Virus record (IMG/VR): IMGVR_UViG_3300045044_000038
Location: 1 to 34,834 of that record
Strand: one strand, 5' to 3'
DNA: 34,834 nucleotides
Origin: a virus
The notes under the pieces were generated by a model. It worked only from the letters and a program-made list of their open reading frames with translations. It was not told where the DNA came from and searched no databases. Made by a program: the position numbers and the translations under genes. Positions within the stretch are counted from its first letter, which is position 1; each line of letters opens with the position of its first letter. This document shows positions 4,235-25,885 of this stretch, in pieces.

Positions 4235-4840
4235 TTAGTCAACGTAGTACCAAACATCGACAACCGCCGTGCCTGTGCCGGTGATAAATGCCGCTGTTTG
4301 GTTACTGATAAACAGACCCAAGTTTTGAATCGAGGTCGAGGCCAGGTCTGAGATGACCGCGCCGTTACGCAAGGAAACGGTCGTGCCAGCCGCGCCGGTA
4401 ATAACCGTAGACGCGAGCGTTGAGTCAGCCGATTGCTGACCTCCACCAGTTGCAGTGTTACCGTATTGGAAGATTACGGCGCCACCGTTCGCGTAAGCGG
4501 TCGATGTGCGCGTAATCGTGAACACGATTTTATCTACAACGATAGTTTTGCCTGATCCTGGGGCAGCGATTAACTGCACCGGGGTTGCGCTCATCGCCAA
4601 AATGTTGGCCGAGCTAAGGTTGACGGTCACGTGTTGTTCCATTCCGCCTCCGATATTAACGCCGTCTGTGACGAAAATATCGTAGGGGCGATGGCCCAAT
4701 GTTAAAGATCCAAGATCCGAGTAGCCGTCGCGGTTAAAGAAGTTTGAGGCTTCTCTGTTCATCCCGGCTGGGCTTGCCGCCAACGCAAGCGTGACTGGCA
4801 ATAGCACAAGCGCGAGTATTTGTTTTAGTGTTTTATTCAT
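4235..4840 (-). CDS. Signal-peptide structural protein of phage head-fibre-like family
   Basis: The 201-residue product starts with a leader (MNKTLKQILALVLLPVTLALA, cleavage near AAS). The body contains HVTVNLSSANILAMSATPVQ, LIAAPGSGKTIVVDKIVF and YANGGAVIFQYG, a pattern common in small phage virion proteins that I know as head-fibre or hypothetical structural proteins. The APGSGKT string looks like a P-loop but sits in a beta-rich family and is not expected to bind ATP. A 67-base gap separates it from the upstream hydrolase gene; I see nothing in that gap. It is first in transcription order of the five leader-bearing genes. Confidence 0.65.
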   Translation of the reverse strand: MNKTLKQILALVLLPVTLALAASPAGMNREASNFFNRDGYSDLGSLTLGHRPYDIFVTDGVNIGGGMEQHVTVNLSSANILAMSATPVQLIAAPGSGKTIVVDKIVFTITRTSTAYANGGAVIFQYGNTATGGGQQSADSTLASTVITGAAGTTVSLRNGAVISDLASTSIQNLGLFISNQTAAFITGTGTAVVDVWYYVD

Positions 4841-4907
4841 TCTGAGGTTTACTTTGCTTCTGTTGTTCTGTTTTTCCGCCGTGCCTCGAAGCCAGTCACG
4901 TAGGAAA

Positions 4908-5393
4908 TTATCGATAGGGTTGAAGGTGAAAGGTTGTCTCCCCGATCACGGCAGGGATTCCGGGCCAGAGTTCGTACTGGATAATGTGATCCGCTTCGCC
5001 ACCGCTCGTGGGCGACGGATTGATCCCAATCGCTTTAGCCGCGGCAACTGAGATTTCACCGATTTTGTTTTCCGGCCCGATGTCCGCCACGACGCACAGG
5101 CACGAAAGTTGGTTGACAAGGTTCGTAATCCGCGCCCTGCAACCGAGCACAATCCCGCGGACTCTTCGTATGATGATAGGGGGAACAGTGACATAAGGTA
5201 TTAAATCTGCGTTGACGGATTGCCCGTTAAATTTGAGTGAAGTAGAAGGTTGCCAGCACGGATCGTTGTGCGAGTTCTCCGGGGTTCCATCGCCGTCAAT
5301 AGCCGCCTTAGAGATAAAAGTAACTTTTCCGTTTTCGTGCTCAGTAATTTTTTCGCCTTCACGGATTGCGATTGTTTTTAGCGGGCGAACCAT
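4908..5393 (-). CDS. GH75 chitosanase-like hydrolase, candidate endolysin or depolymerase
   Basis: A 161-residue product if it starts at the ATG ending at 5393, which overlaps the preceding small gene by 16 bases. The frame could extend to an ATG ending at 5468, but that would bury almost the whole preceding gene. KAAIDGDGTPENSHNDPCWQ, TSLKFNGQSVNADLIPYVTV, VLGCRARI and VADIGPENKIGEIS match glycoside hydrolase family 75 (fungal-type chitosanase fold). The Asp of VADIG (D104) and the Glu of IGEIS (E113) fit the known catalytic Asp/Glu pair. The substrate here is inferred: host peptidoglycan or a chitosan-like polymer. No signal peptide is visible, so a holin would be needed if it acts in lysis. 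Confidence 0.75.
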   Translation of the reverse strand: MVRPLKTIAIREGEKITEHENGKVTFISKAAIDGDGTPENSHNDPCWQPSTSLKFNGQSVNADLIPYVTVPPIIIRRVRGIVLGCRARITNLVNQLSCLCVVADIGPENKIGEISVAAAKAIGINPSPTSGGEADHIIQYELWPGIPAVIGETTFHLQPYR

Positions 5394-19762: not shown

Positions 19763-20056
19763 ATGAACAACATTGCACGCGAAAAGGCAAAGCAAACTCA
19801 ACGCCGTAATCAGCAAAAGTGGGCAAGCCAGACAATTAAGGTCGATTCGGAGTGGGAAATCCGGCGCGAAGATGAACTAAATTGGGGCATCTGGCACAAG
19901 GGCAAGACTAAAAACTGGTATTATCCGTCAATTCCGGCGGCTTTAACTGCTCTTCCCCTCAAGATGCTCAACGAGGAGGCCAAAGGCACGCTAAAAACCG
20001 TATTATCTATCCAAAAGGGCATCGTGGATCGGATCGAGAACGCGTTTGCCCTATGA
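19763..20056 (+). CDS. 97-residue basic protein, unknown, before replication gene
   Basis: The ATG at 19763 is preferred to an in-frame TTG at 19727. The product starts MNNIAREKAKQTQRRNQQKW and has a segment WEIRREDELNWGIWHKGKTK followed by a helical tail (GTLKTVLSIQKGIVDRIENA). Its stop overlaps the next ATG (ATGA). Position between the iteron array and the replisome gene suggests a replication accessory role, which is only inferred. Confidence 0.55.
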   Translation: MNNIAREKAKQTQRRNQQKWASQTIKVDSEWEIRREDELNWGIWHKGKTKNWYYPSIPAALTALPLKMLNEEAKGTLKTVLSIQKGIVDRIENAFAL

Positions 20057-20817
20057 ATGGCTACACGAAGCTCTTTTCGGACATAATCATGTCCACCATT
20101 TGGCGTGAGGACGATAAGACCCGGCTCGTATGGGTAACAATGCTCGCCCTCCGCGACAAAGATCACATCGTTTCGGCTTCGGTGCCGGGTTTAGCCGACG
20201 CCGCGCGAGTCTCGATCGAGGATTGCCGCAAAGCGATAGCCAAACTCGAATCACCTGATCCTGACAGCCGATCGGAGGCTCTAGAAGGCCGGAGGATTGT
20301 CAAAATTGAAGGCGGATGGTTCATCGTTAACGGCGCCAAATACCGGCACAAAGATTGGCAGGAGGACAAGCTGGAACGGCACAGAGAGGCGAATAAACGC
20401 TACTACGACAAGAAGCGTTCGGATACTAATTCGGATAATTCGGATCGAATCGGACACAAGACAGAGACAGAGACAGAGACAGAGACAGAGACAGAGACAG
20501 AGACAGAGACAGAGACAGAGAATAAGAAAGAAGAAAAGAAGAAAAAGAAAGAAGAACTACCCAGCTATTCCTTTTTTGATTCTAAGCTTCAAAACCTCTT
20601 CAATTCCGAATGGATCCCGTACCGCCGGAAACTCGGGAAATGTAAAGACTTCCCTGCCATGTTCCGGAAACAAGCGGAGTGGCTCGCCGGGTTCGACTTC
20701 AAAACCGCTTCCGAGATTGTTAATCAATCAATCCGCAACGGCTGGCAGGGGTTGTTCCCGCCTAAGACTGCGCCGAGTGCCGGGAAAGCACCAAAAGACG
20801 ATTCGCGGGTAGTATGA
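20053..20817 (+). CDS. Replisome organizer-like protein with TE-repeat linker
   Basis: The 254-residue product opens with a winged-helix-like domain (YTKLFSDIIMSTIWREDDKT, VPGLADAARVSIEDCRKAI, RIVKIEGGWFIVNGAKYRHK) typical of phage replication-initiation (replisome organizer) proteins. A linker with ten TE dipeptides (137-156) and a Lys/Glu run joins it to a C-terminal helical part (WIPYRRKLGKCKDFPAMFRK, SIRNGWQGLFPPK). The C-terminal NGWQGLFPP motif is frequent in phage initiators that load helicase. It is followed directly by the DnaB-like helicase (ATGA overlap), which supports helicase loading at the nearby iterons. Confidence 0.75.
   Translation: MNGYTKLFSDIIMSTIWREDDKTRLVWVTMLALRDKDHIVSASVPGLADAARVSIEDCRKAIAKLESPDPDSRSEALEGRRIVKIEGGWFIVNGAKYRHKDWQEDKLERHREANKRYYDKKRSDTNSDNSDRIGHKTETETETETETETETETETENKKEEKKKKKEELPSYSFFDSKLQNLFNSEWIPYRRKLGKCKDFPAMFRKQAEWLAGFDFKTASEIVNQSIRNGWQGLFPPKTAPSAGKAPKDDSRVV
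20461..20520 (+). repeat. (ACAGAG)10 hexanucleotide microsatellite
   Basis: Ten perfect tandem copies of ACAGAG inside the initiator gene, read as Thr-Glu ten times. Copy-number change would alter only linker length and keep the frame. Perfect identity suggests a recent expansion or ongoing slippage. Confidence 0.9.
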
Positions 20818-22088
20818 CCGATATTCAGCGCCCGCCGCCCCACAGCCAAGAGGCCGAGCAAGGCGTTCTAGGCTCGATTCTGTGCGATTGCAAGGCCATT
20901 GCGAAGGCGGCGCAGATACTTAAACCCGAGCACTTCTACGTTCCAGCTCACCAAACCATCTACGTTCTACTCCTCGAACTGTGGACGGCCGGAAAGCCAA
21001 TTGACCTTATCACTTTCACCCAAACCCTCCGGGACCGCAACGTGCTGGAACAAGTCGGCGGTGCGCCGGGAGTCACGGCCTTATTCACCTTCGTTCCCAG
21101 CTCGGCCAATTTGGATTATTACGCCGAGATTGTGCGGGATAAATACGTCCTGCGTTCAATTATCGCGGCCGGCACCCAAAGCGCCGCCAATGCGCAGGAG
21201 AGTGAGGATGCGGCCGAAACCCTGGCCCAAACCCAAAAAGCCTTTGCCGATATCGCAAGCTCGCGCATCGCCCGCGCCGACCGAAAGACTTTCAAACAAC
21301 TAATGCTCGAAAAGCTGGAGCGCATGGACAACCCCGTTAAGCAAGACAACTGCATCCCGACCGGCCTAGTCAAGCTGGACAAGCTTTCCCCCGTTTTCCC
21401 CGGCGATTTTCCCCTTCTCATGGCCGAGCGTAAGACTGGTAAGACAATCCTCGCTCTTAACATTTCGGTTAACGCGGCGGCCGAGGGTAAGCGCGTTCTG
21501 TATTTTAGCTTGGAAGATCGAGCTAACAAGGTTGCTGACCGGATCTTCGCCATGCGGACCCGCGTCCCGATGTTCAAGCAGCGCAGCCTTGAACTCACCC
21601 CCCAGGAAGTTAAATGCTGCGGCGCTGTGGCCGGACACCTGTCCGAGTTCCCGATTACGCTCGTGGACGACGCTTTCGATTTGATAGACGTGGTAGCCCT
21701 CGCCCGCGAGCACAATACCCGCCATAAGCTCAGCCTAATTGTGGTGGACTACGCGCAACTTATCCGAGTCCCGGAAGGTAGAGACAACCGGGAGCGCGCA
21801 GTAGCCAGTATCAGCCGCACCCTGCGCCTGCTCGGTATGGAACTGGATGTTGCGGTTCTGCTGTTGTCGCAGATTAACGAGGCTGGCCGCGCACGAGAAT
21901 CCCGCGCCCTAGAACAGGATTGCACCGCGGTATGGTGGTTACGCCACGACATGGAAGAGGACGGCCCGAATGTGCGCTGGCTCGATATCCCCGCGCAACG
22001 CAACGGAGAGAGCGGCATCAAGTTCCCGCTCCATTTTTCGGGCGAGATAGCGTTTTTCGGCAACTACCAAGAGGAGGAAAAGGAGTGA
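20814..22088 (+). CDS. DnaB-like replicative helicase
   Basis: The 424-residue protein has the DnaB N-terminal domain (PHSQEAEQGVLGSILCD, VPAHQTIYVLLLELW, ITFTQTLRDRNVLEQVGG) and a RecA-like C-terminal ATPase: Walker A AERKTGKT (204-211; the usual GxxxxGKT starts here with Ala), Walker B SLIVVDYAQL (307-316) and a sensor-like LLLSQINEAGRA. It unwinds DNA at the fork as a hexamer. It is somewhat shorter than host DnaB. Its stop overlaps the GTG of the methyltransferase gene. Confidence 0.9.
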   Translation: MTDIQRPPPHSQEAEQGVLGSILCDCKAIAKAAQILKPEHFYVPAHQTIYVLLLELWTAGKPIDLITFTQTLRDRNVLEQVGGAPGVTALFTFVPSSANLDYYAEIVRDKYVLRSIIAAGTQSAANAQESEDAAETLAQTQKAFADIASSRIARADRKTFKQLMLEKLERMDNPVKQDNCIPTGLVKLDKLSPVFPGDFPLLMAERKTGKTILALNISVNAAAEGKRVLYFSLEDRANKVADRIFAMRTRVPMFKQRSLELTPQEVKCCGAVAGHLSEFPITLVDDAFDLIDVVALAREHNTRHKLSLIVVDYAQLIRVPEGRDNRERAVASISRTLRLLGMELDVAVLLLSQINEAGRARESRALEQDCTAVWWLRHDMEEDGPNVRWLDIPAQRNGESGIKFPLHFSGEIAFFGNYQEEEKE

Positions 22089-23062
22089 ATGAACCAACGC
22101 ACCTCGACCTCTTCTCAGGAATCGGAGGATTCGCCCTCGCAGCAAGATGGGCAGGATTCAGGACAATCGGCTTCTGCGAGATCGACAAATACTGCCAGAA
22201 AGTCCTCGCCAAAAACTTTCTGGCCGACGCCGCAGGCAGATACAACAACAACATTACAACACGGCAAACCGAGCCTAACCCTTGCAGCCCAGTTATCATG
22301 TCGGACATCAGAGAACTCGACGGACGAACCTTTGCAGGCGTCACCCTCATCACAGGTGGATTTCCTTGCCAGCCTTTCAGCTGCGCCGGGAAGCGACGAG
22401 GCAAGGAGGATGACCGTCATCTCTGGCCGGAGATGCTGCGCGTTATTGCGGAAGCAAGACCCACTTGGGTGCTTGGCGAAAACGTTACTGGAATCATCGG
22501 CATGGAACTCGACTCTTGCCTATCTGACCTGGAAACCATCGGCTACGCCACGCGGCCGTTTGTTATTCCAGCTTGCGGTGTCGATGCCAAGCACAGACGA
22601 AACCGGGTCTGGATTGTTGCCAACGCCCAACGCGATGGATGTTCTGCCACCGAATCCCGACCTGGAACGCTACAGCAACCTGCGCGATCGGGTGGCGTTT
22701 CAGATGTGGCCTACGCCCAATACTCCGACCGGAGGACCGAACACAAAATCGACCGAGAAACACACGGGCGGCATGGACTTAGACGGAGCGGTCAAGATGT
22801 GGCCGACAATGAGAGCCAGCGATTACAAGGGAAGCGGTCCGGTCGGGTCAAAGAGCCAGAAGCACATGAGCGAGAGGGAATATCTCTGTGCAACAGTGGC
22901 GACGGATCAGTCTGGAGCCCTGAACCCGACGTGGGTCGAGTGGCTAATGGGATACCCAATCGGGTTCACAGGCTTAAAGGACTCGGAAACGCCATCGTCC
23001 CGCAGGTCGCCTACCAAATTCTCCGCGCAATCGCGCAAATCGAAAGGGGCGAAATAGAATGA
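22085..23062 (+). CDS. DNA cytosine-C5 methyltransferase, GTG start
   Basis: The 325-residue product carries the C5-methyltransferase motifs in order: I DLFSGIGGF (8-16), IV with the catalytic Cys in GGFPCQPFS (C95), VI ENV (132-134), VIII RRNR (171-174) and X GLGNAIVPQVA (299-309). Motif X ends the protein, as usual. The GTG follows AGGAGG-AAAAGGA and overlaps the helicase stop. The region between motifs VIII and X is poor in structure and holds repeats like DVAY and DVAD. Residues 45-75 hold an insertion (GRYNNNITTRQTEPNP). No partner restriction gene is present, so host-restriction evasion or gene control is likely. It overlaps a second open frame almost completely. Confidence 0.88.
   Translation: MNEPTHLDLFSGIGGFALAARWAGFRTIGFCEIDKYCQKVLAKNFLADAAGRYNNNITTRQTEPNPCSPVIMSDIRELDGRTFAGVTLITGGFPCQPFSCAGKRRGKEDDRHLWPEMLRVIAEARPTWVLGENVTGIIGMELDSCLSDLETIGYATRPFVIPACGVDAKHRRNRVWIVANAQRDGCSATESRPGTLQQPARSGGVSDVAYAQYSDRRTEHKIDRETHGRHGLRRSGQDVADNESQRLQGKRSGRVKEPEAHEREGISLCNSGDGSVWSPEPDVGRVANGIPNRVHRLKGLGNAIVPQVAYQILRAIAQIERGEIE
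22089..23057 (+). CDS. Overlapping +1-frame gene, WPTP-motif protein, possibly dual-coded
   Basis: An open frame of 322 codons starts at the ATG four bases after the methyltransferase GTG and ends five bases before its stop. The product shows features I know from phage proteins of unknown function found beside methyltransferases: repeated WPTP/LPTP motifs (45, 177, 207 and WPT at 238), GSDEARRMTVISGRRC, DPLGCLAKTLLESSAWNST, TPRGRLLFQLA and LNPTWVEWLMGYPIG near the C-terminus. The same DNA in the other frame gives VANA, DVAY and DVAD. It may be a real overprinted gene or a by-product of the methyltransferase code. Both share one ribosome site. Confidence 0.5.
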   Translation: MNQRTSTSSQESEDSPSQQDGQDSGQSASARSTNTARKSSPKTFWPTPQADTTTTLQHGKPSLTLAAQLSCRTSENSTDEPLQASPSSQVDFLASLSAAPGSDEARRMTVISGRRCCALLRKQDPLGCLAKTLLESSAWNSTLAYLTWKPSATPRGRLLFQLAVSMPSTDETGSGLLPTPNAMDVLPPNPDLERYSNLRDRVAFQMWPTPNTPTGGPNTKSTEKHTGGMDLDGAVKMWPTMRASDYKGSGPVGSKSQKHMSEREYLCATVATDQSGALNPTWVEWLMGYPIGFTGLKDSETPSSRRSPTKFSAQSRKSKGAK

Positions 23063-25270: not shown

Positions 25271-25885
25271 ATGCCGCACCGTATCACAGGCTATCATTTT
25301 ACCGGCGACACGCTCCGGGATGGTCGTCCGATTCCCGAAGTCGGCGAATGGTTAATCCACGAAGGTGAGGTCGCTCCGTGCGAAGTCGGGCTCCATGCCA
25401 GTCCGCATCCGTTTGACGCGCTCCTATATGCGCCCGGGAATCGGTTGCACAAAGTAGTTTTACGTAAGGGCCTCAAATCTCACGGCGATCCGATAGACAA
25501 ATACGTTGGGAAAGAGCGCAAAATTATCGCCTCAATCGACGCTGAAAAACTTCTGCGCGATTTCGCTAGATGGTCTGCCCTGAAAGTCATTCACTTATGG
25601 GACGCGCCTGATGTAGTAAAGCAATTTCTCGAAACCGGTGACGAGAATTTGCGGGCTGCGGCGCGGGATGCGGCGTGGGCTGCGGCGCGGGATGCGTTGG
25701 CTGCGGATGCAGCGCGGGTTGCGGCGTGGGCTGCGGCGTGGGCTGCGGGGCGGGATGCGGCGCGGGATGCGGCGTGGGCTGCGGCGCGGGCTGCGGCGCG
25801 GGATGCGGAGTGGAATGCGGCGTTTAAGAAATTTACCAATAAAGCCCGCAAAGAATTTAAGAAACGAGTTGAAGTAGCATTTTAA
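25271..25885 (+). CDS. Phage protein with N-terminal DUF-like domain and Ala/Arg/Trp repeats
   Basis: Residues 1-125 form a domain seen in many phages: TGDTLRDGRPIPEVGEWLIH, CEVGLHASPHPFDALLYAPG and LHKVVLRKG, ending with RDFARWSALKVIHLWDAPDV. Residues 128-185 are a periodic helix of AAARDAAWAAARD type. A basic tail (KARKEFKKRVEV) closes it. This family (often a DUF with variable repeats) has no known function. The repeat region is low in complexity at DNA level and may vary between relatives. Confidence 0.6.
   Translation: MPHRITGYHFTGDTLRDGRPIPEVGEWLIHEGEVAPCEVGLHASPHPFDALLYAPGNRLHKVVLRKGLKSHGDPIDKYVGKERKIIASIDAEKLLRDFARWSALKVIHLWDAPDVVKQFLETGDENLRAAARDAAWAAARDALAADAARVAAWAAAWAAGRDAARDAAWAAARAAARDAEWNAAFKKFTNKARKEFKKRVEVAF
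25652..25825 (+). repeat. GCGGCG-rich degenerate tandem repeat coding A-A-W/R-D/A units
   Basis: Units of 12 bases such as GCGGCGTGGGCT and GCGGCGCGGGAT alternate and encode AAWA and AARD. Near-identical codon choice suggests recent DNA-level expansion. The helix it encodes places Trp or Arg regularly. Confidence 0.75.

Follow-up and report, generated by a model that had tools for sequence, protein, structure and literature searches.

A phage C5-cytosine methyltransferase gene and the gene overprinted on it probably encode two subunits of one split enzyme

Two reading frames of a phage genome that cover almost the same DNA, termed here alpha and beta, most probably encode the two subunits of a single, naturally split C5-cytosine DNA methyltransferase, a reading to which we give a probability of about 90%. 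The window analysed is the whole stretch of 34,834 nucleotides of the IMG/VR virus record IMGVR_UViG_3300045044_000038, and the helicase gene, alpha, beta and their motifs described below lie on its plus strand. As the initial annotation had stated, two overlapping open reading frames are present. Alpha (22085–23062) starts with GTG and encodes a C5-methyltransferase large-domain subunit of 325 amino acids with motifs I–VIII and X, and beta (22089–23057) starts with ATG in frame +1 and encodes a protein of 322 amino acids that belongs to the WPTP family (phrog_1008). Nearly all of this DNA is common to both genes. The large domain of C5-methyltransferases comprises motifs I–VIII and a part of motif X, and the small domain comprises the target-recognition region (TRD) and motif IX (PMC5944983). 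Beta is proposed to be the small subunit carrying the target-recognition region and motif IX, and its best reading is a DNA-recognising subunit of the M.EcoHK31I kind. The computed support consists of the conservation of both frames, the selection acting on them zone by zone, the lack of a small domain in alpha and the motif IX match of beta. From these results we infer the expression of the pair and translation of beta, the assembly of both chains into a complex, and its activity, specificity and biological role.

The order of signals at the beginning of the two genes is compatible with their joint translation. Because the upstream gene for a DnaB-type helicase (20814–22088; PF03796, E 2.1e-35) ends with the TGA at 22086–22088, which overlaps the GTG of alpha, the ATG of beta stands directly after the helicase stop. 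The putative ribosome-binding site GGAGG (22073–22077) precedes both starts, with a spacing of 7 nt to the GTG at 22085 and of 11 nt to the ATG at 22089, which agrees with the earlier proposal that the two start codons, 4 bases apart, have one ribosome site in common. Translational coupling is possible in such an arrangement, and beta of the window probably initiates via reinitiation or from the common ribosome-binding site. The start codon of beta is not uniform among relatives. It lies exactly at +4 relative to alpha in 14 of 110 representatives, the median offset of the first available start is 163 nt inside alpha, and in many relatives this start is found approximately 160–185 nt inside alpha. 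A beta start codon was present before or at the edge of the beta core in all 110 representatives, and at least one beta start was located behind a Shine-Dalgarno (SD)-like site in 97 of them.

Two repeat arrays were observed elsewhere in the window. A perfect AGACAG hexamer array of 10.5 copies (20459–20521) lies inside the ORF 20053–20817 and encodes (TE)n in the gene frame and (RQ)n in a second one; the array may vary in length. A tandem 12-base unit, GCGGGATGCGGC, is repeated in 14 copies (25651–25822) inside the ORF 25271–25885, the N-terminal part of which matches DUF7666.

Alpha matches PF00145 (E 1.6e-39) and phrog_363 (1.3e-74), as well as generic methyltransferase models of PADLOC, and contains motifs I, IV (PCQ), VI (ENV), VIII and X. 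The initial annotation had assigned all main C5-methyltransferase motifs to this frame. This was confirmed for motifs I–VIII and X but not for motif IX, which, together with the target-recognition region, lies outside the alpha frame and is under selection in the beta frame. The AlphaFold2 model of alpha was confident for residues 1–185, except for loops near 53–62 and 90–110, and for the motif X helices (pLDDT 86–97), whereas residues 186–292 were without structure and mostly below pLDDT 50. Its best structural match was M.HhaI (Z 23.1, 204 residues, rmsd 2.7), a single-chain C5-methyltransferase; both ends were aligned, and about 120 of the 327 M.HhaI residues were left unmatched. The large domain and motif X of M.HhaI are thus matched by alpha, but the one chain of M.HhaI, unlike alpha, also contains the recognition region and motif IX. 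The model therefore predicts a C5-methyltransferase large domain for alpha, with a disordered stretch in the place of the small domain. As residues 186–292 are both structureless in the model and nearly neutral in selection, alpha alone would represent only the large-domain part of an enzyme.

Beta matches phrog_1008 over residues 86–296 (E 1.4e-32) and is thereby placed by profile in PHROG 1008, a family labelled "DNA methyltransferase". Pfam and NCBIfam gave no family match for beta, PADLOC gave none, solved structures were matched neither by sequence nor by profile, and a Foldseek search with the beta model returned no match at E below 0.001. The AlphaFold2 model of beta alone was weak (pLDDT 58.6, pTM 0.27). 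The protein contains WPTP segments followed by the motif-IX-like LNPTWVEWLMGYP. Its most conserved segment, LNPTWVEWLMGYPIGF, is located at the expected position of motif IX and is similar to this motif in related enzymes, both single-chain and split, a match that rests on about 20 residues, their position and the bridging relatives described below. Beta therefore appears, as judged from these segments, to carry the piece that is missing from alpha.

The two frames are conserved together. Beta was found at exactly +1 of alpha in 160 of 160 related viral loci, and both proteins occurred in this register in 309 of 311 loci, diverse bacterial genomes included; 293 of the 311 pairs overlap largely, 16 partly, and two are apparently one ORF. 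In 70 phage records, the loci found by tblastn with beta (E to 4e-37) were those of alpha; the search also matched at least 595 stretches of viral contigs and, in bacterial genomes, at least 398. The initial annotation had named frequent +1 stop codons in homologues as a sign against a second gene. Such stops were rare: in 203 non-redundant loci, 35 were present in the beta core, against 704 expected from synonymous-codon shuffles that keep the alpha protein, with stop zones defined by alpha alone, which is an approximately 20-fold depletion. The depletion was confined to the beta core, with 3 stops against 255 ± 10 expected over motifs IV–VIII and 17 against 249 ± 11 between motifs VIII and IX, whereas motifs I–III (428 against 458) stayed at the shuffle level and motif X held 427 against 387. 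Nearly all residual stops lie downstream of motif IX, where beta has ended, and belong to alphas that have an insertion ahead of motif X; in one locus (L009) the beta core is interrupted, and L189, a single-chain relative, lacks the normal layout. Most loci were fetched with beta, which favours loci having it, and the 79 new loci that were retrieved with alpha are the only ones free of this bias; loci fetched with alpha alone (48 non-redundant) contained no stop in the beta core.

Several individual loci depart from the common layout. Two alphas (L008:2805–4136 and L004:1–1095) have a repeated C-terminal tail, in which GRVANGIP..., an insert of about 110 residues and PRVAKGVKxRxxRLRGLGNAIV follow one another, and beta ends before this insert. 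One phage contig holds two adjoining alpha-beta units (L148:3001–3714 and 4421–5089). Five alpha-beta places with identical match scores were found on one chromosome of a Roseovarius MAG (OX638333.1, L239–L243) and are perhaps repeated prophages. In L076:1362–3962, an ORF of 867 codons joins an N-terminal part resembling the terminase large subunit (PF03237, 2.4e-06) to alpha with no stop between them, and beta is still overprinted on the methyltransferase part.

The distribution of purifying selection between the frames was estimated from 44 independent, codon-aligned pairs, in which each change was sorted according to what it does in either frame and w was obtained by a simplified counting method with Jukes-Cantor correction. 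Over motifs I–III (22085–22354), alpha was constrained (w_alpha 0.11) and beta was not (w_beta 0.86), and this part of beta is often missing in relatives. Both frames were constrained over motifs IV–VIII (22355–22621; w_alpha 0.14, w_beta 0.32), where beta reads "GSDEARRMTVISGRRC...WNSTLAYLTWKPSATPRGRLLFQL". In the target-recognition zone between motifs VIII and IX (22622–22919), the WPTP segments of beta were constrained (w_beta 0.34), and alpha was a nearly neutral linker with VADx repeats (w_alpha 0.85). The motif IX zone, which in the beta frame of the window reads LNPTWVEWLMGYPIGFT (22920–22970), gave w_beta 0.11 and w_alpha 0.65. Constraint then returned to alpha over motif X, LKGLGNAIVPQVAYQ (22976–23020; w_alpha 0.10, w_beta 0.97). 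The ratio of changes at third and first codon positions in alpha numbering (p3/p1) followed the same course, with 3.25 for motifs I–III, 1.62 for IV–VIII, 0.60 for the TRD, 0.27 for IX and 3.75 for X. Pair by pair, p1 exceeded p3 in the TRD zone in 38 of 44 cases, and p3 exceeded p1 in the motif X zone in 37 of 44. Purifying selection thus changes frame along the gene, acting on alpha over motifs I–III and X, on both frames over IV–VIII and on beta over the TRD and motif IX. The zone-wise w values and the flip of codon positions therefore indicate that one enzyme's worth of constraint is divided between two frames. The true overprinting that the initial annotation had considered is strongly supported, since the +1 frame is constrained beyond what alpha imposes on it.

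The border between the two chains appears, from the order of motifs in relatives, to shift while the motif set stays complete. Motif X is found on the beta chain in 16 loci (Mycobacterium phage Bombshell gp79/gp78 and relatives, L185 and L254), in which alpha ends soon after motif VIII and both chains together give one set of motifs I–X. In mycobacteriophages of the A4 type (Bombshell, L163; A4 is a cluster name), gp79 stops right after motif VIII. The Bombshell-type gp78 matches the beta profile (E 2.1e-20), holds LPTP segments, RLNAAFSEWMMGWEEGWVTD and motif X, and overlaps its partner only little. The two loci counted as one ORF are L254 and L183. In L254, from a Bacillota MAG, alpha ends after motif VIII, and a typical beta (E 1.8e-80) is extended by a motif X tail in the style of alpha; L183 runs in a single frame from motifs I–VIII through LPTP segments to motif IX, and its motif X appears frameshifted. 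Of the relatives L182 and L183, one is split at +1, and the other continues in one frame from motifs I–VIII to the LPTP segments and motif IX. In L189, a single chain holds motifs I–VIII, RLSPPFVEWLMGLPAGHVTD, which is the counterpart of motif IX of the window, and motif X.

Other explanations of beta have to be weighed against these results. One family could be only a shadow translation of the other, as the initial annotation had also allowed, with the +1 frame looking conserved merely through the constraint of the alpha protein on the DNA. Over motif IV, beta ("GSDEARRMTVISGRRC") does sit on highly constrained alpha residues, but shuffles that preserve alpha predict about twenty times more core stops than were seen, beta is constrained in the TRD and IX zones, where alpha is close to neutral, and mycobacteriophages have beta-type chains that are almost un-overlapped. 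With the stop depletion, the zone-wise w and the pair-by-pair flip of codon positions all against it, this explanation was rejected and retains next to no probability. Beta could also be a separate regulator of the methyltransferase, such as an inhibitor, an anti-restriction factor or a specificity switch, and not belong to the enzyme itself. Its constant genetic linkage to alpha would suit such a role. However, the small domain is absent from alpha, and what beta provides is precisely the motif IX and the recognition zone that alpha lacks; beta without alpha was found in none of the 311 loci, most of which had been fetched with beta. Moreover, the presence of motif X on the beta chain in 16 loci would be expected only of two chains that make up a single enzyme. 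A regulator is thus highly improbable. Among the roles suggested earlier for the second protein, an inhibitor or anti-restriction factor is not supported, and "cofactor" came closest, in the form of a second subunit with the target-recognition region and motif IX.

Another possibility is that a programmed +1 frameshift near motif VIII is the sole source of beta, which would then exist only as the extension of alpha in a fused I–VIII–TRD–IX chain. A natural join, HRRDRV-GLWPTP, exists at a GTCT word in 64 loci, and in the class with motif X in beta a +1 shift would restore a full canonical enzyme. Against this, the GTCT word is accounted for by beta's own Ser codon, beta is under selection over motifs IV–VIII, upstream of any shift and in a part that would then not be made, and the beta start codons and SD-like sites of the 110 representatives point to separate initiation. 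The unshifted alpha must also be needed, because its motif X is strongly constrained. Frameshifting as the only source of beta is therefore very unlikely, and the reading of alpha and beta as two subunits of one split enzyme is preferred.

Two-polypeptide C5-methyltransferases offer the closest known systems. In M.EcoHK31I the small gene lies inside the large gene in another frame, as beta does in alpha, and the subunits have about 309 and 176 amino acids, lengths within the range of the present loci. This YGGCCR methyltransferase is built from two polypeptides, the smaller of which bears motif IX (PMC3404938) and the large one motifs I–VIII and X, and the same layout was found in the window by the selection zones, the alpha model and the motif IX comparison; the likeness is one of motif layout. 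The two systems differ in that the published TRD of M.EcoHK31I is in the large subunit, whereas selection and the bridging relatives place it in beta, and in that M.EcoHK31I is part of a restriction system, whereas the present pair is encoded by a phage, and no restriction enzyme was identified next to it. M.AquI (CYCGRG) is naturally split after motif VIII, and its small chain carries motifs IX and X, as in the 16 relatives that include the Bombshell type and unlike the window, where motif X is on alpha and the genes overlap almost completely. The Paenibacillus phage Shelly gp56 ("g55 internal gene") and ORF28 of phage K1H ("Mte8-like") belong to the same beta family as PHROG 1008. The family has thus been annotated inside the C5-methyltransferase gene in some phages, with annotations that give no subunit function, and many records annotate only one of the two frames. 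Because of M.EcoHK31I and of the phage annotators who marked the inner frame, this kind of gene pair is already known. A literature search on nested methyltransferase genes found only papers on split enzymes, and relative to the literature searched the breadth of the family, the measured hand-off between frames, the TRD in beta and the movable motif X appear to be new.

In the mechanism we propose, alpha would form the large domain, which binds SAM and contains the PCQ catalytic loop, motifs IV, VI and VIII and the helices of motif X, and would reach motif X by reading the recognition-region DNA of beta as a disordered linker of about 100 residues. Beta, translated from its own ATG 4 bases after the alpha GTG, would provide the small domain in trans, with an N-terminal part over motifs IV–VIII, the WPTP target-recognition region and motif IX. 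Given the common ribosome-binding site and the ATG directly after the helicase stop, both subunits could come from one message and assemble into a methyltransferase in which beta recognises the target and alpha carries SAM and catalysis. This complex would methylate a specific sequence, plausibly protecting phage DNA from host restriction.

Summarizing, the alpha-beta pair is an unusually clear case of a long same-strand gene overlap in prokaryotes, in which the passage of selection from one frame to the other can be read within a single gene. Natural split methyltransferases of this kind would be usable for targeted methylation, for which artificial splits are in use today (PMC3439449, PMC5944983). 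It is likely that the pair is widespread and old, overprinted across phages and many bacterial phyla as obligate subunits with a motif X movable between the chains, and that split C5-methyltransferases are common and mostly unannotated, not rare like M.EcoHK31I. Hundreds of annotated phage and bacterial "cytosine methyltransferases" are probably half-enzymes, with their DNA specificity encoded in a second frame that many annotations omit; therefore, an annotated ORF that has been recoded would probably yield a dead enzyme, and a specificity predicted from alpha would be wrong.
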